Below, one piece after another: positions 12,028 through 18,930 of a stretch of 37,742 nt of DNA; the first letter of the stretch is position 1, and each line of letters opens with the position of its first letter. The stretch covers positions 1 to 37,742 of the forward strand of contig JACZJK010000033.1 in the NCBI GenBank assembly GCA_014860575.1, given 5' to 3'. Below the pieces are notes generated by a model. That model was not told the DNA's origin, ran no database searches, and was given only the letters and a program-made list of their open reading frames with translations. This DNA comes from Bacteroidales bacterium (GTDB lineage: Bacteria > Bacteroidota > Bacteroidia > Bacteroidales > JAAYJT01). The translations under genes and the position numbers were made by a program.

Positions 12028-15000
12028 ATGGAAATTAATTACAAGTATTTCAGCGCTTTGTGCAAAGTGCTTTTTATTGCATTAACGCTCAGCGCTGCAA
12101 TGTCCCTGAGTGCACAGGTACCTGCCACGCAGGGCAAGCCCAGTCTGGCAACTGCAACTCTTACCGGAAGAGTTCAAAACCCTTCTGAAGACTCACAAGT
12201 CAACGATGTTGCACCCTATGAACCGCAGGACATTGTTGATGCCTTCTCTCCGAATGCTGTAACATTACAGGATATGGAGTTACGGGCAAAGCACCATCCA
12301 TACATGCCCGAAGAAATCGTAGTTGCGATGGAGTTAGGAACTTCCAAAAGTAATGCAGCTTCAGTGCTCGATCAATTTAACTGGCAGGGGCTTTTTGCGC
12401 AGCAGGGAGTTGCGCTTAGTTCAGTGTTGATGAAAGCTGACAGGGGAAGCTTTCGCAGCATAGCGCTGGTGCTTCTATCTTTGCCCGAAGGCACTAAGGT
12501 GTTTGAAGCGATGAAAAAGCTGGAAGGCAAAAGTGGAGTTTTATGGAGTTCTCCCAATTTCTATTTCGATGGAGACCCTCGTGAATTCATTCCCAACGAC
12601 CCCGACTATGCTTATCAATACCATCATCCTCTGATGAAGAATGACCTGGCATGGGACATCACCCTTGGGAGCCCATCAATAATTGTCGCAATAACTGATG
12701 ATGGCGTTGAATTGACCCACAGCGATCTGGCGCCGAATATTTGGGTAAACACAGGCGAAATACCTGGCAACGGGATTGACGACGACGGCAATGGCTACAT
12801 AGACGATGTGAACGGCTGGGATTTTGTAAATGGAAATAACGACCCGAATCCTGACCAGTTATCGTATTACCACGGTACACACGTTGCAGGTATCGCCGCC
12901 GCACGCACCAACAATGCTATAGGCGTAGCAGGTGTTTCGGGACATTCGACGATTATGCCACTTCAGTTTTATGATTATATAACCTGGACAGCGGCCATGA
13001 TTAACGAGACATTTACTTATGCTGCTGATAATGGAGCTAACATTGTCAATACCAGCTACAACATAGACTTCTGGGTAGGCGACCCGGTTTTCACTGCCGG
13101 ACTCCAGTACCTTTGTGATGCAGGGGTATTGCATCTTAATTCAGCAGGTAATAATAGCGAGCTTAACCCTCCCCGCCAGGCTTTCCAACAAACATTGCTG
13201 GTTGCCAGCACCGATGCAGCTGATATAAAGAGCAGCTTTAGTAATTATGGAAATGGTATTGATATTTCTGCGCCGGGTAGTTCGATTGGCTCTACATTTC
13301 CAGGAAACCTCTATGCTTTTCTTTCAGGTACCAGTATGGCCGCGCCAAATGCTGCGGGAGTAGCAGCGCTGATCTGGTCTGCCAACCCAACCTGGACACG
13401 CGATCAGGTGGCAGCTCAACTCCTGGCAACTGCTGATAATATTGATGCTGCCAACCCTACCCTGGTTGGGTTACTTGGTTCGGGAAGGGTGAATAGCTAT
13501 GCTGCACTGACGTCTGTATTATCGGCTCCCCAGGTTAAGTCAACCTTAGGTTTGCCTGACGAGGGAACAACAATATCAAGGCTTGATCTCACCAGCTTTT
13601 CGGTGGCTTTCAATCAGGTGATAGATCCCGCAACAGTCAATAATTTGGCGAATTTTGAGCTACGTAGTGCAGGGCCAAATGAAATTTTTGGCGACGGAGA
13701 TGACTTTGTTCATACATTATTAACCGCATCAATTTACCAAATAGGGACCAACCAAATGACCTTCCAGATTTCTGACCTAACTCCATTGCAATGGGGGCTT
13801 CACCGGTTAACACTGGTTTCGGGCGGGCTGGAAAATCCTTTTGGCACCAGTCTGGATGGTGATGGTGATGGTGTTGGAGGGGATGATTTTGTCCGGACTT
13901 TTTCAGTCGTGAATGGTTGTCCTTCAAGGCCAATTCTCTTAGTTGATGCCGATGCTACGGGATTAAACAGAGGTATATCGTGGACAGATGCCTTCACAGA
14001 CCTGCAAAGCGCACTCAACAGCACCTGTCCCAATATTACCGAAATCTGGGTAGCTGCAGGCACCTATTATCCTACAGCAGGTACCGACCGCAACATTTCA
14101 TTTATTATGAAAAATGGCGTTGCCATATACGGCGGATTCAGTGGAACAGAAACCCTGCTTTCTGAGCGGGATTGGGTGGCTAACCCCACCATCCTCAGCG
14201 GAGATATCAACCAGAGCGGAACTCTGGCCGGAAACTCCTACACTGTAGTTACCGGCTCCGGCACGAACGTCACAGCGGTGATAGATGGATTCACCATCAC
14301 CATGGGTAATGCTGACGTTACGGGTTCCTATTATGACCCAAACGGATTCGGCGGGGGCATGTACAATAACTCCGGCTCCCCCACAGTAACGAACTGCACC
14401 TTTTCGGAGAATTCTGCTTTTTTTGGGGGTGGCGGGATGTTCAATTATGATAATTCTTCCCCCACGATAATCAAATGCAACTTTTCGGGGAATACGGCCA
14501 TTGATTATGGCGGCGCTATGTTAAATGAGAAATTCTCTTCCCCCACGGTAACGAACTGCAGCTTTTCGGGGAATACGGCAGGTATAACTGGCGGCGGTAT
14601 GGACAATTATGAAGATTCCTCACCCACGGTAACGAACTGCAGCTTTTCGGGGAATACGGCAGGTTTAAGTGGCGGCGGGATGTCCAATTTGGAGAATTGT
14701 TCACCCACAGTAACGAACTGCTCCTTTTCGGGGAATCAGGCTGCTAGCAATGGCGGCGGGATGTTCAATGAATCTAATTCCTCCTCCATGATAACAAACA
14801 GCATAATTTGGGGAAACAGCAGCGGGATAGTAAGTACTTCTTCCACACCAACTGTAAATTACTCCATCGTGCAGGGTGGATATGCAGGCACAGCTAATCT
14901 GGATGCAGATCCATTGTTTGTTGATCAGCCGCCGATAGGGCCTAGTACAGTTGGGGATTTGCGCCCCCAAGCCCACTCCCCTGCTATCAATATAGGCAAT

Positions 15001-15630
15001 AACTCCGCAGTTCCCCCGGGCATTACCACCGACCTTGACGGCAACCCTCGTATTTCTGGCAGCACAGTAGATATGGGCGCGTATGAATTGCAGACAGACG
15101 ATACACCGGTTAACCTTGATCTTAACGGTTTGGTTATTGGCGAAAATGACAGCGAGTGTTTTGGCGCCACCCAAAATATCACTGTTCAGGATGTTAGCGT
15201 AGATGCCGGAGGCAGCCTTACGCTGATAGCAGGCAACTCAATAATTATTACTCCCGTGTTTAATGTTGCAGCCAATGCTTACTTCCGTGCGTATATTTCT
15301 GATGAATACTGCACATTGCCAGCTTCACTGCTTGCCCTTGAATCAGAAGTTGAAAACAACCCGGCCTTAGATTTTAATGAAAACCTTTCGGATGATCTGA
15401 GGATTTTCCCAAATCCGACCACTGGCGGGTTTACTATTGAAATGGGAGAAACCTTTGGTTCAAATAAGACTTCAGTAAGCATATATAACCTGATAGGTGA
15501 ACTGATACTAACGAACGAAAATGTTTTAAATCAGGCAGAGTTTAACCTCTCTGGGCATCCCAACGGGATATATGTTGTCCTGATAAGAAATAATGAAAAC
15601 ACAGAAATCAGGAAGCTGATCAAGCAATAA
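12028..15630 (+). CDS. T9SS-secreted S8 subtilase with beta-helix, tandem paralogue of the 2143-residue protease
   Basis: A protein of 1200 residues. The first 500 residues align without gaps to the preceding gene: signal peptide (1-29), propeptide, and S8 domain with D224, H282 (in YYHGTHVAG) and S436. A Big_5-like Ig domain (about 505-625) follows. Next is a right-handed beta-helix (about 635-1015) with six 27-residue repeats on the pattern SPTVTNCSFSGN, then GGGM and N. The last 171 residues (3-coathanger stack 1030-1095, T9SS type A sorting domain 1124-1200) are almost identical to the paralogue, with only a few silent changes in the last 280 bases. It lacks the MopE, P, jelly-roll, PKD and PA modules. 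The complete triad predicts an active secreted protease. It lies 160 bp downstream of the first gene, behind that gene's terminator, with the same 35-base leader. Confidence 0.92.
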   Translation: MEINYKYFSALCKVLFIALTLSAAMSLSAQVPATQGKPSLATATLTGRVQNPSEDSQVNDVAPYEPQDIVDAFSPNAVTLQDMELRAKHHPYMPEEIVVAMELGTSKSNAASVLDQFNWQGLFAQQGVALSSVLMKADRGSFRSIALVLLSLPEGTKVFEAMKKLEGKSGVLWSSPNFYFDGDPREFIPNDPDYAYQYHHPLMKNDLAWDITLGSPSIIVAITDDGVELTHSDLAPNIWVNTGEIPGNGIDDDGNGYIDDVNGWDFVNGNNDPNPDQLSYYHGTHVAGIAAARTNNAIGVAGVSGHSTIMPLQFYDYITWTAAMINETFTYAADNGANIVNTSYNIDFWVGDPVFTAGLQYLCDAGVLHLNSAGNNSELNPPRQAFQQTLLVASTDAADIKSSFSNYGNGIDISAPGSSIGSTFPGNLYAFLSGTSMAAPNAAGVAALIWSANPTWTRDQVAAQLLATADNIDAANPTLVGLLGSGRVNSYAALTSVLSAPQVKSTLGLPDEGTTISRLDLTSFSVAFNQVIDPATVNNLANFELRSAGPNEIFGDGDDFVHTLLTASIYQIGTNQMTFQISDLTPLQWGLHRLTLVSGGLENPFGTSLDGDGDGVGGDDFVRTFSVVNGCPSRPILLVDADATGLNRGISWTDAFTDLQSALNSTCPNITEIWVAAGTYYPTAGTDRNISFIMKNGVAIYGGFSGTETLLSERDWVANPTILSGDINQSGTLAGNSYTVVTGSGTNVTAVIDGFTITMGNADVTGSYYDPNGFGGGMYNNSGSPTVTNCTFSENSAFFGGGGMFNYDNSSPTIIKCNFSGNTAIDYGGAMLNEKFSSPTVTNCSFSGNTAGITGGGMDNYEDSSPTVTNCSFSGNTAGLSGGGMSNLENCSPTVTNCSFSGNQAASNGGGMFNESNSSSMITNSIIWGNSSGIVSTSSTPTVNYSIVQGGYAGTANLDADPLFVDQPPIGPSTVGDLRPQAHSPAINIGNNSAVPPGITTDLDGNPRISGSTVDMGAYELQTDDTPVNLDLNGLVIGENDSECFGATQNITVQDVSVDAGGSLTLIAGNSIIITPVFNVAANAYFRAYISDEYCTLPASLLALESEVENNPALDFNENLSDDLRIFPNPTTGGFTIEMGETFGSNKTSVSIYNLIGELILTNENVLNQAEFNLSGHPNGIYVVLIRNNENTEIRKLIKQ
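14377..14862 (+). repeat. Six tandem 81-bp repeats coding beta-helix rungs
   Basis: Units begin at 14377, 14458, 14539, 14620, 14701 and 14782, each exactly 81 bases (27 residues). The consensus starts SPTVTNCSFSGN and includes a GGGM-x-N turn. Units 3-5 are close to identical in DNA; units 1, 2 and 6 are more diverged. The in-frame period allows copy-number change without a frameshift, so the length of the helix could vary between strains. Confidence 0.9.
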
Positions 15631-15886: not shown

Positions 15887-17068
15887 TCACAAATACTCCA
15901 CTCCCACTTCCTTCAAAAACTTTTTCTCCAGCAATTCCGCCAGCTTCTTCACAACATTGCGGCGGATGTCGAGTTCAACAGGCATTGTGGGATCCTGATG
16001 GGCTTCGTTGATTTTGGTTCCAACCAGGAGATTTATTTCATCGCTTTCTAAAAGCATTGCGGCTATGCGATCAGCGGGACCCCTCGTGAAAACAGTATTG
16101 CTGTCATACATTTTCAGGATTTGAATTACTTTGCTGATTGTCAACATTCCCTCGGTGATGAGGTCAACACCATCCATATTCGATACCGGCGGCAAATCGG
16201 GATCGTGAAATTCGGTTTCATCCATAATTTCAGATCCGAGTTCACGGGCAATAATATCGGCTGTTGTAGCACCGCAAATAATCTTCTTACTTTCAAACTC
16301 TTTTACTTTCAAAGCCATCTCAGCATCACTGCCTTCATCGAAGGGCGGGCCAGTACAAAGCAGTAAGCGTCTCGGTTCGCGGAAATAAACCACGGCACAG
16401 GAGCAATCGTCCTTAGGATGATAGTTATCGTTGGCAATTGCTTTGGTTACAACCTTGTTAGCTAATTCCGAGGCACTCATTTCCGGATTCTTTTTCAAGG
16501 TTTCTTTAACAAACTCCAGGAGGTTGTCCCTTCCCCAACCTTCAGTATATTTTCCACCCAGGCCCGATTGTGTAATTCCATCGCTGAAAAAAACAACACG
16601 ATCGTGCTGATGGATCTGAAAACGGGCATGGCGCATCACCATTCTTCTGCCCTGCTGGCCTTCGGTAACAAAGTTCTGCCAGGCAATTTCCTTCACTTCT
16701 CCATCGCGGACAATAAAGCATTGAGGATTATCATATTCAAGGATGCCGATGTCTCCGTTGTAAGAGATATCCAGTGCAGTAAAAGTAGAATAGCTTATTT
16801 TTCGTGTGCTGCAAACTGGCAGCGTCTTAGTTATTATCTCTGCAATGCGCTCAAAATCCTTGTGCTCCTTGATAAAATTCAGCATCATGGTAGCAGTAAG
16901 TGTGGCCAGCACATTGGCCTTCACACCATGACCCATGCCATCAGAAAGTACAGCCACTATGCGTTTTTCTTCACGGATGCGGGCCGAGCGGAAAACATCG
17001 CCGCAAATCCGCTCGCCTTCATGGTTCTTTTGCTGGCAATGCACTTCAATATACAGATCCTTGCTCAT
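15887..17068 (-). CDS. SpoIIE/PP2C-type serine phosphatase, partner of the hydrogenase-like sensor
   Basis: The product is 393 residues and cytosolic. Residues 20-228 form a SpoIIE phosphatase domain with metal-binding acids D24 (ICGD), D43 (LSDGMGHG), D163 (FFSDG) and D220/D221 (PKDDCSC), all present. It should dephosphorylate Ser/Thr on a partner protein, in the manner of anti-sigma-antagonist control. A further C-terminal domain (about 235-393, beginning near RRLLLCTGPPFDEG) has no motif I know but appears to belong to this subfamily. Its ATG overlaps the stop codon of the upstream hydrogenase-like gene (ATGA), so the two are translationally coupled and likely work as input and output of one signalling unit. 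No anti-sigma or STAS target is encoded in the window. Confidence 0.88.
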   Translation of the reverse strand: MSKDLYIEVHCQQKNHEGERICGDVFRSARIREEKRIVAVLSDGMGHGVKANVLATLTATMMLNFIKEHKDFERIAEIITKTLPVCSTRKISYSTFTALDISYNGDIGILEYDNPQCFIVRDGEVKEIAWQNFVTEGQQGRRMVMRHARFQIHQHDRVVFFSDGITQSGLGGKYTEGWGRDNLLEFVKETLKKNPEMSASELANKVVTKAIANDNYHPKDDCSCAVVYFREPRRLLLCTGPPFDEGSDAEMALKVKEFESKKIICGATTADIIARELGSEIMDETEFHDPDLPPVSNMDGVDLITEGMLTISKVIQILKMYDSNTVFTRGPADRIAAMLLESDEINLLVGTKINEAHQDPTMPVELDIRRNVVKKLAELLEKKFLKEVGVEYL

Positions 17069-18930
17069 GCTCCGCTTTTTTTCTGCTGTGCGCGGTGGGT
17101 TTCAATCAGCGAATTCAGCATACGCTCGGTGTTGGCGGCACCTTCACCCAGTAGCGATCCTATTTCCTGAACCATTTGCAGGTTCTGATCAATCACTTCG
17201 CTCAGTCGTTTCACCAGTTCTTCTTTCTGAACTTCGGGAAGGTACATATCGCGAATAACAGCACCGGTAATTTTGTTTTCTACAATGCTGTAAATTGAAA
17301 CATTCAGCATCTTATCTTCGAAGTGTATATCTTTTCCAAGCACATCTTCACCATTGCTGAGAACATATTTAAACAGGTTGTAGAAACTGAAAGGCAGCAG
17401 GGTTTTCAGGTCGGCATTTTTAAGTCCGGGAATCACTTCATTAATCATAGCAGCATCCTCGCCAAGCATTTTCACAAAGCTTTGGTTTGATTCCACCACC
17501 CGGAGGTTCTCATTAACGATCACTATTCCAGCTGGAAGTTTCTGGATCAGAACACCAAGGGTTTGCAGCGCTTGTTGCGCCTGAACCGTTTCTTCTCTTG
17601 ATTGCTTTTCGCTTTCCTGTAGTTGCTTTTGCTTTTTCGACAATTGCTCGTTGGTGTTCCGGAGGGTTTTTATATAATCCTGCTTCGTTCTCAGGGAATA
17701 CGTGAGGCAGCTGTCGGTTCTGGCCAGGCCCTGGCTAACCGCAATGGCAAAATCGCGGCAAGACTCAAAACCACATTGCTCGCAGGCATGTTGAGGTTCA
17801 AAATTTTCATTGCCAGTGGTTTTCAGCACTTCATTTATCTGATCCTCCGATGGCATTGGCAGTCGCTGGTCATCGGGTTGGAATTCACGCGAGTAATCAA
17901 GCTTTGCAAATTGCTCAAGGTTCGCAATCCAGTCATTTTCATTAACGGCTTTTATGCGACGAGCAGTGTAATCAGTGACAAGGGCATGGCGGCGGTAATA
18001 ATCATTGCTGAAACTCATGCCCGGCCCCATCATGCAGCCTTTGTTGTAGAAAAGATTAAAATGGCATTTTACGTCTTCAATGTGCGAACCAAACTCGCGG
18101 ATGGCCGTCAGAAAATTCTGTTTGCCTGCAGCCGTCCGGATTTTGGATTCAAGCAAATCGGTATTCAAACCGGCAACCTGCACAAACCCGTTGGCAATCG
18201 GATACAATGAACCGTGCCGGCTATGCGGCGGGTCGAAATCAGAAAACTCCAATGCCGCTTCGCTGATGTCTCTGCCTTTAAATAACGTTCGTAATTCAGT
18301 AAAAGTAATCACCTCATCCACTTTCGATTTTCCATGCGAACGCGAAGCTTCTACTTTGGCCGAAATACAAGGCACAACACTAACCACCTTGATACCATCG
18401 CCATATTTTTCGCGCATGATCAACGCCATAGCACTCATTGGTGAAAGCAGTGGCACAAGATTCCTGACCAACTGAGGCTGGTACTTTTCAATGTGAAGCA
18501 CAAGGGTCGGACAGTTAGAAGTCATGTAATACTTTCCCTTAAAATTCTTCAGCATTGCGCCATATTTTTCCGCTATAATCTCAACTGCAAAAGCAGTTTC
18601 CGAGACCCACTCAAATGCAAGCAATCGCAACATGCCTGCAAACTTGCGGTAATCGGTGATATCAGGAAATTCAGCTGCAATGCTAGGATCGAGGATGGCG
18701 GCAACTTTGTTTTCAGAAGCCAACAAGGCAGCTACGGCAGGTATGGAATCATGGTAAGTAATTGCATCCTCAGGGCAAGCTTTTAAGCAAGAACCGCAAC
18801 CTGTGCAGCGATCATGAACTATTTCAGGAAACTCCTGGTTCCGACCCAGTTTAATAGCCCTTACCGGGCATGCCTGTACACAAAGCATGCATTGCGTACA
18901 TTTTTCCTGGTTCAGATGAATAAGCTCCAT
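17065..18930 (-). CDS. [FeFe]-hydrogenase-like sensory protein with ferredoxin and PAS domains
   Basis: The product is 621 residues. Residues 1-60 hold two [4Fe-4S] motifs: C11, C14, C17, C21 and C42, C45, C48, C52. Residues 70-345 resemble the H-cluster domain: L1 is TSNCP (137-141), with C140 kept but Asn at the proton-relay Cys; L2 is PCISAK (187-192, C188). L3 is NKGCMMGPG, with bridging Cys C299 but Tyr295 where the other cubane ligand normally sits. Residues 383-408 add an Fe-S motif (C383, C386, C391, C408), followed by a coiled coil (about 415-455) and a PAS domain (about 457-560). This layout and the coupled SpoIIE phosphatase fit the sensory group C type ([FeFe] C3-like). Little or no catalysis is expected. 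It probably reads redox state or H2 and controls the phosphatase; the ligand is inferred. No hydrogenase maturation genes are present. Confidence 0.87.
   Translation of the reverse strand: MELIHLNQEKCTQCMLCVQACPVRAIKLGRNQEFPEIVHDRCTGCGSCLKACPEDAITYHDSIPAVAALLASENKVAAILDPSIAAEFPDITDYRKFAGMLRLLAFEWVSETAFAVEIIAEKYGAMLKNFKGKYYMTSNCPTLVLHIEKYQPQLVRNLVPLLSPMSAMALIMREKYGDGIKVVSVVPCISAKVEASRSHGKSKVDEVITFTELRTLFKGRDISEAALEFSDFDPPHSRHGSLYPIANGFVQVAGLNTDLLESKIRTAAGKQNFLTAIREFGSHIEDVKCHFNLFYNKGCMMGPGMSFSNDYYRRHALVTDYTARRIKAVNENDWIANLEQFAKLDYSREFQPDDQRLPMPSEDQINEVLKTTGNENFEPQHACEQCGFESCRDFAIAVSQGLARTDSCLTYSLRTKQDYIKTLRNTNEQLSKKQKQLQESEKQSREETVQAQQALQTLGVLIQKLPAGIVIVNENLRVVESNQSFVKMLGEDAAMINEVIPGLKNADLKTLLPFSFYNLFKYVLSNGEDVLGKDIHFEDKMLNVSIYSIVENKITGAVIRDMYLPEVQKEELVKRLSEVIDQNLQMVQEIGSLLGEGAANTERMLNSLIETHRAQQKKSGA

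Follow-up and report, generated by a model that had tools for sequence, protein, structure and literature searches.

A phosphatase-linked [FeFe]-hydrogenase-like sensor of Bacteroidales with repeated changes at its H-cluster ligand positions

Contig JACZJK010000033.1 of a Bacteroidales bacterium (assembly GCA_014860575.1) provides a stretch of 37,742 nucleotides, here called the window, in which two overlapping genes encode a hydrogenase-like protein and a phosphatase. The first gene encodes HydSp, a hydrogenase-like sensor of 621 amino acids recognized by open reading frame (ORF), domain and fold searches (17065..18930), and the second a SpoIIE-type PP2C phosphatase of 393 amino acids recognized by ORF and Pfam (15887..17068); these and all their features given below lie on the minus strand. 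The two ORFs have 4 nt in common, the ATGA stop/start overlap at 17065..17068, as read from the DNA (...gga gcATGAgc aag...). A first-pass annotation made from the letters of the window had proposed such an overlapping pair, in which a sensory protein with a hydrogenase-like N-terminal half and an extra Fe-S motif, a coiled coil and a PAS domain in its C-terminal half is coupled to a SpoIIE phosphatase, and each of these elements was recovered by our searches, in that domain order. Two further features came to light. HydSp lacks one H-cluster ligand cysteine and one residue of its L3 motif, and the phosphatase has, besides PP2C, a second domain that is unassigned but highly conserved.

HydSp begins with two [4Fe-4S] ferredoxin motifs holding 8/8 cysteines (residues 11-52; 18775..18900; Pfam Fer4, E=1.2e-14, and alignment), followed by an H-domain that matches Fe_hyd_lg_C PF02906 (residues 75-283; 18082..18708; E=1.3e-33, 117 bits, cut-off 22.1). 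The Fe-S motif of the C-terminal half is formed by C383, C386, C391 and C408 (17707..17793; Pfam PF04060 at residues 380-408, and alignment), and is an exact match of Cx2Cx4Cx16C, the motif given for groups C and D (PMC8163306). It is followed by a predicted, coiled-coil-like helix of 55 residues (409-463; 17542..17706; AlphaFold2 model and alignment), of which approximately 38 residues are missing in the aligned type II relatives described below, then by a PAS-like fold (468-561; 17248..17529) and a C-terminal helix of low model confidence (565-619; 17074..17238; AlphaFold2 model). The Pfam match to PAS is weak (17.7 bits, under the cut-off of 22.6), and the AlphaFold2 model presents the region as a five-stranded PAS-like fold with a block pLDDT of 86-95. 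The mean pLDDT of the model is 86.7, with 77-88 for the long helix; less certain are the C-terminal helix (44-69) and the L3 loop (66-75), and thus no geometry is claimed for the latter. The best Foldseek matches of the model are the CbA5H, HydABC and CpI hydrogenases (best E 2.9e-21).

The phosphatase matches SpoIIE PF07228 (E=1.7e-17, 64.5 bits, cut-off 25), and its PP2C domain (16388..16969; Pfam and alignment) holds GD, SDGMGHG, SDGI and DD motifs, which serve in metal binding. When 61 phosphatases were compared with a regular expression of these motifs, 49 passed; 10 of the 12 failing did so at the third motif, the pattern of which was narrowly set, and 2 at the first. A sporulation SpoIIE proper was rejected, as TIGR02865 (SpoIIE equivalog) gives 52.2 bits against a cut-off of 490.8. 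The C-terminal domain of approximately 165 residues (226-393; 15890..16393; alignment and structure comparison) has no Pfam match in the window phosphatase, and GPP, GGTT, DLvTEG and GTxIN.AHQDP.lPveLeiRRn are conserved in 70 relatives, 65 of which stand in one alignment. Its predicted fold is confident (pLDDT 89), with NuoG 371-532 as the best match in the VIA structure comparison (Z 10.0, 3.5 A, 120 residues), and the 13 top VIA rows are presumably complex I NuoG/NDUFS1, formate dehydrogenase and formylmethanofuran dehydrogenase-type chains. The structure comparison suggests an alpha/beta domain, and we limit the claim to "Rossmann-like" because Foldseek returned nothing at E <= 0.001 and the structural neighbours have 6-16% identity; a profile search against PDB sequences gave chance-level matches only. 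It probably serves in regulation or in binding a substrate.

Related pairs were surveyed in 149 genomes of the order. Sensors of the HydSp kind, which we call type I, are present in 49 of them, in three as contig-cut pieces only. A matching phosphatase (at least 425 bits) was found in 47 of the 49, the two exceptions being sensors at contig ends, and none of the 149 genomes had a phosphatase of this score without the sensor (Fisher p 8e-37, a nominal value that ignores relatedness). Sensor and phosphatase are direct neighbours in 43 of the 49 genomes, with gaps, measured between match ends, from -1 up to 153 nt, and lie on another contig or separated in 4. The first-pass annotation had named a lack of co-occurrence in relatives as grounds for giving up the coupling, and the opposite was found; a chance or tandem ORF is likewise ruled out by conservation and by the recurrence of the pair in 47/49 genomes. 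Beyond the order, three candidates were scored in each of 389 genomes from the same phylum; a full-length type I sensor appeared in none, and the best candidate reached 37% over residues 8-435.

For comparison, contigs of named genomes were scanned with a mostly type II alignment, and the 80 top-scoring loci, drawn from a wide range of phyla, served as a sample of type II, the other phosphatase-linked sensors. Their sensors are 561-664 aa long and the phosphatase lies directly behind the sensor in 76 by the gap rule; in three of the remaining four the overlap with the called phosphatase start reaches further in, and the fourth is at a contig end, so that these loci fit the ordinary group C3 pattern. 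Our tree consists of 117 rows and was built by a quick method with three motif regions left out and SH-aLRT supports in place of bootstrap. It includes, as does the ligand table, 35 of 90 type II sensors (25 of the 80 named loci and all 10 from the order) and 46 type I rows, pieces of 500 aa or less (L210, L211, L212, L213), all cut by contig ends, being left out. The 46 type I rows form one clade (SH-aLRT 99), which sits in a group with 21 kinase-fused sensors (SH-aLRT 94, not starred) and apart from the 35 type II rows (SH-aLRT 100), 4 group D-like and 7 group A rows. Among the 25 rows nearest the kinase-fused paralog, kinase domains were scanned in the row from the source genome; the other 20 of the kinase-fused clade are so called by length and similarity, and L083, L086, L088 and L094 are shorter and fall outside that clade.

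A catalytic group A hydrogenase, which the first-pass annotation had set against its sensory reading, was rejected on the separation of the type I clade from the 7 HydA rows and on TIGR02512 (98 bits, cut-off 405.95), and group B on TIGR04105, the best NCBIfam match of HydSp (149.7 bits, cut-off 450). HydSp agrees with group C3 in its H-domain, two N-terminal [4Fe-4S] motifs, Cx2Cx4Cx16C, PAS-like fold and adjoining phosphatase, and departs from it in lacking the four ligand cysteines with CxxxC in L3. The proposed assignment to sensory group C beside PP2C phosphatases therefore stands in architecture and pairing, whereas in the tree type I goes with the kinase-fused paralogs and not with the widespread phosphatase-linked clade.

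We take C300, C355, C499 and C503 of the CpI hydrogenase to be the H-cluster ligand positions. Three of the four are retained in HydSp: C140 in L1 TSNCP (18511..18513) is equivalent to C300, C188 in L2 VPCISAK (18367..18369) to C355, with the Lys of the motif also retained, and C299 of HydSp in L3, FNLFYNKGCMMGPG (residues 291-304; 18019..18060), to the bridging C503. N296 occupies the C499 position and L3 has one residue less than CxxxC, and the congener L057 likewise reads YNKGC. These equivalences come from alignment to HydA rows and the numbering in PMC8163306 and PMC10055695. HydSp, with three ligands and a shortened L3, probably forms no canonical H-cluster, and direct H2 sensing would thus be lost or altered. 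A compensating cysteine was sought and rejected, as C289, the sole other cysteine of the window H-domain, is Cys in 1/46 type I rows and Ser in L057.

Across the 46 type I rows, cysteine occupies C300 in 43, C355 in 42, C499 in 32 and C503 in 43, the C499 column being C 32, N 6, H 2, D 2, K 2, R 1 and G 1. The set of four is complete in 32 and incomplete in 14, the window among these, and it is complete in 35/35 type II rows, 25/25 rows nearest the kinase-fused paralog, 4/4 group D-like rows and 5/7 group A rows, the other two being HydA with TSCSP and hence Ser at the C300 position. This TSCSP for TSCCP in L1 was observed in a HydA of the source genome (C65 HydA_b, L007:13304-15097, G000) and also in L068 and L074. 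L3 spacing is two residues or less in 44/46 type I rows, with CxxxC in the early-branching L071 and L073; it is exactly two in the 21 kinase-fused rows and three in the type II, D-like and A rows. CxxxC is present in 80/80 of the best type II loci, all of which were checked at L3, and at L1 and L2 for the tabulated rows. On the tree built without the motif columns, parsimony puts the minimum number of changes at 6 for C499, 3 for C355, 2 for C300 and 2 for C503; these counts cover losses and gains alike and depend on inner branches of low support. A single contraction of L3 is rejected in its simplest form, for the tree demands 3 spacing changes, and it does not discriminate between one early contraction followed by two re-expansions and separate contractions.

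It has to be asked whether the pair is nevertheless a canonical group C3 H2 sensor, in which an H-cluster is assembled, Asn, water or another ligand completes its [4Fe-4S] part and H2 controls the phosphatase. In its favour are the retention of three ligands, the bridging Cys among them, and of the Lys in L2, the three catalytic-type HydA of the same genome, the wide occurrence of ordinary C3-like pairs with L3 intact and a report from R. albus of such a pair in an operon that responds to H2 (PMC6776011). We consider it unlikely because L3 is one residue short with Asn at C499 in both the window and L057, C289 is no substitute, related lineages without all four ligands still keep the pair, and the ligating cysteines are stated to be conserved in sensory enzymes (PMC10055695).

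The most extreme cases are L055 and L098, from one genus, and L097, in which all four ligands are gone. The ligand-free L055 and L097 still match PF02906 at 96 and 112 bits (cut-off 22.1), the phosphatases of all three keep the PP2C motifs, and both lineages retain the motifs for the accessory clusters. Between the L055 and L098 H-domains dN is 0.125 against a dS of 1.76, which is near saturation and makes the ratio of 0.07 rough. H2 metabolism as a whole has thus not disappeared from the three genomes, which hold 4, 4 and 5 further PF02906 genes. Within type I the mean identity is 0.53 for the H-domain, 0.48 for the ferredoxin part, 0.47 for the C-terminal Fe-S part, 0.52 for PAS and 0.67 for the C-terminal helix, the highest among the parts compared; relaxed selection on the whole H-domain is thus not supported, since it is conserved no less than other parts. 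The C-terminal Fe-S cysteines are 4/4 in all 46 full-length type I sensors and the N-terminal ferredoxin cysteines 8/8 in 38. One could read the repeated changes at ligand positions as decay, with the sensor drifting to a pseudogene. This is very improbable, for the window ORF is intact, the stops flagged in G130 and G071 fall outside the translated ORFs (624 and 609 aa), the G116 sensor is merely cut at contig ends, and low dN with saturated dS goes together with full retention of the C-terminal Fe-S cysteines and PP2C motifs.

The gene neighbourhood brings in a further possibility. In 27 of the 49 type I loci other than the window, hydC/hydB of a trimeric operon are oriented divergently from the pair (two of the loci are halves of one contig-cut sensor), and 9 of the other 22 reach a contig end within approximately 2.2 kb; the pairs of the window and L057 lie elsewhere. 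A kinase-fused sensor and a Rex homolog are each found in 22/49 of these stretches, which are of unequal length. An H-domain without a working centre might then be an interaction scaffold, docking HydSp onto HydABC or the kinase-fused paralog and bringing the phosphatase to its substrate. The fold that remains recognizable with low dN after complete ligand loss, and the position divergent from hydCBA, beyond which lie the kinase-fused sensor and Rex, are consistent with such docking; the C-terminal Fe-S cysteines kept in 46/46 suggest instead that a cluster still matters, and we give the scaffold a low probability. Among side observations at these loci, Rex-like palindromes near TTGTTAANNNNTTAACAA (or TTGTGAANNNNTTCACAA) stand upstream of HydSp in L040, L044, L050, L051, L053, L066 and L072. 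Rex-like sites with up to 2 mismatches thus occur in 7/46 type I upstream regions, compared with a mean of 0.9 and a maximum of 4 in shuffled sequences; upstream of the window pair there is none at this level, the best having 4 mismatches. The HydA_c (L039-L072) of operons beside type I pairs often have S, D, N, H or A at C299, presumably the proton-shuttle Cys of HydA, and the C11 HydA copy of the source genome is normal at this position.

Homologous phosphatases also occur behind other inputs. In G072 (L217/L239) a 308-aa PAS-PAS protein is encoded ahead of the phosphatase, 5-9 kb from hydABC-type genes and beside a group D-like gene. Its second half aligns with the sensors from PAS through the C-terminus at up to 46% identity, with best scores of 155 bits to a type I and 154 to a type II sensor, and a domain search found no Fe-S or hydrogenase domain in it; the phosphatase is nearest those of type I by tree path, without strong support. 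G155, G160 and G165 have a 168-aa PAS protein ahead of a homologous phosphatase (identity 32-34%) and, just before the PAS gene, a protein of 96-99 aa, which in G160 matches a 2Fe-2S thioredoxin-like ferredoxin family below cut-off (19.4 bits, cut-off 24.8). These three arrays of small 2Fe-2S-thioredoxin-like gene, PAS and SpoIIE lie at L236:7512-9455, L238:7751-9694 and L237:8521-10470, and PF02906 has 0 matches in the three genomes (94-98% complete). Since the input domains vary before homologous phosphatases, the common part is the PAS-helix and phosphatase, and the hydrogenase is one input among several. The pair is thus best read as a PAS-SpoIIE output module with an exchangeable redox input, here a pseudo-hydrogenase.

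The source genome (4.4 Mb, 66 contigs, 95% complete) has six PF02906 genes including that of the window. Three hydrogenase operons account for three of them, all catalytic-type HydA, one (C11) combines a sensor with a HisKA-HATPase kinase and adjoins a response regulator, and one (C65) is a 452-aa PAS-less form, like group D by architecture alone. There is one SpoIIE domain, and the only STAS match lies within a 585-aa frame; at this completeness the profile search found no stand-alone STAS protein and no STAS_2. A classical STAS partner switch of the Rsb kind was therefore rejected, as no stand-alone STAS gene and only one SpoIIE make its substrate unlikely. The best HATPase_c_2 match of the genome is in the C65 hydrogenase cluster, where a short RsbW-like HATPase adjoins a DRTGG gene. 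This cluster (L007:9127-13014, G000) holds two HATPase proteins, one of them RsbW-like, PHP, two similar DRTGG-type proteins and the group D-like sensor. Its HATPase proteins are possible kinase partners of the lone SpoIIE, and the RsbW-like HATPase and DRTGG protein are the most natural candidate partners of the pair. No target emerged in the window, in agreement with the first-pass annotation, or elsewhere. A separate 1200-aa ORF of the window (12028-15630) looks by eye like a protease of the subtilisin type; it contains PTVTNCSFSGNTA repeats, and its C-terminus resembles a sorting signal.

The first-pass annotation had proposed a redox- or H2-controlled switch. H2 control is doubtful, because the window lacks one ligand and two related lineages lack all four, and the redox reading is favoured. 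On this reading, which we hold at roughly even chances, the pair would report low-potential redox state and not H2, the signal reaching the phosphatase by way of accessory Fe-S clusters and PAS. HydSp would sense low-potential electron supply (reduced ferredoxin or fermentation balance) via accessory [4Fe-4S] clusters, the H-domain would remain as a folded scaffold in the type I branch, and a conformational signal would run from the long helix through PAS and the C-terminal helix to the co-made phosphatase, which would dephosphorylate a protein tied to hydrogenase metabolism. The gene pairing, domain order, L3 contraction with ligand loss, PP2C motifs and varied inputs are seen in the sequences themselves; cluster content, signal direction and phosphatase regulation are inferred, and the substrate is putative. 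Several observations weigh against such a redox sensor. Four cysteines are held by 32/46 type I sensors, 30 of them as CxxC, and these may bind an H-cluster or another cluster; moreover, as 2/7 group A rows fail the four-Cys count, a missing ligand position alone is no proof of inactivity. Conservation of the H-domain no less than other type I parts implies that it still does something, eight type I sensors lack an N-terminal ferredoxin cysteine, and the pair of the window does not adjoin hydrogenase genes. The C-terminal cluster of the group D TamHydS did not respond to H2 by EPR (electron paramagnetic resonance; PMC13104023), which weakens this cluster as the switch. More broadly, and a little more tentatively, the [FeFe]-hydrogenase fold may have repeatedly shed its H-cluster, giving pseudo-hydrogenases that now serve as cofactor-poor redox or ligand sensors driving a PP2C plus Rossmann-like phosphatase, with the PAS-phosphatase core present also in genomes without detectable [FeFe]-hydrogenase.

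The sensor-phosphatase pair itself is known (PMC5037454, PMC6776011, PMC3561251), and the idea is not new, since HydDB already names group C3 "phosphatase-linked (putative)" (PMC5037454); sensory hydrogenases are also described as frequently linked to bifurcating hydrogenases (PMC3561251). New, as far as the literature was searched, are an order-wide phosphatase-linked branch with contracted L3, repeated ligand-position changes including complete loss, and an exchange of the hydrogenase input with the output kept; no description of ligand loss in the phosphatase-linked group was found in that literature, mostly without subscription journals. Surveys treat group C matches as putative H2 sensors, and because ligand-free proteins score far above the PF02906 cut-off, such tallies may take in proteins for which H2 binding of the usual kind is very improbable. 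The natural series of intact, contracted, one ligand lost, all lost and domain replaced offers a direct way to test through which part of a sensory hydrogenase the signal passes, a point left open by the available work on TmHydS and TamHydS.

In RsbP, RsbU and SpoIIE, a PAS or other sensor controls a PP2C-type phosphatase. RsbP is an example of such phosphatases (PMC3183031); the pair described here differs in that its genome has no stand-alone STAS and its phosphatase an extra Rossmann-like C-terminal domain. HydDB group C3 shares with the window pair the domain order, C-terminal Fe-S motif, PAS and adjoining SpoIIE-type phosphatase, and with type I the frequent linkage to trimeric hydrogenase operons (PMC5037454), but type I has L3 contracted to CxxC, an extra long helix before PAS and a clade grouping with kinase-fused paralogs, and the window lacks the C499 ligand. 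TmHydS of Thermotoga maritima (group C) is likewise a PAS-bearing sensory hydrogenase in which C299 is not conserved, whereas it is catalytically active with its ligating cysteines conserved and HydSp lacks one ligand (PMC10055695). HydS and the Ser/Thr phosphatase of R. albus resemble the window kind as a pair tied to hydrogenase genes (PMC6776011). Closest in its doubt about H2 sensing is the group C1 of Hydrogenedentota, where the authors could scarcely find H-cluster motifs; these are of the C1/HATPase type and from another phylum, and the available part of that paper describes neither phosphatase pairing nor the stepwise ligand loss reported here (PMC11406978).

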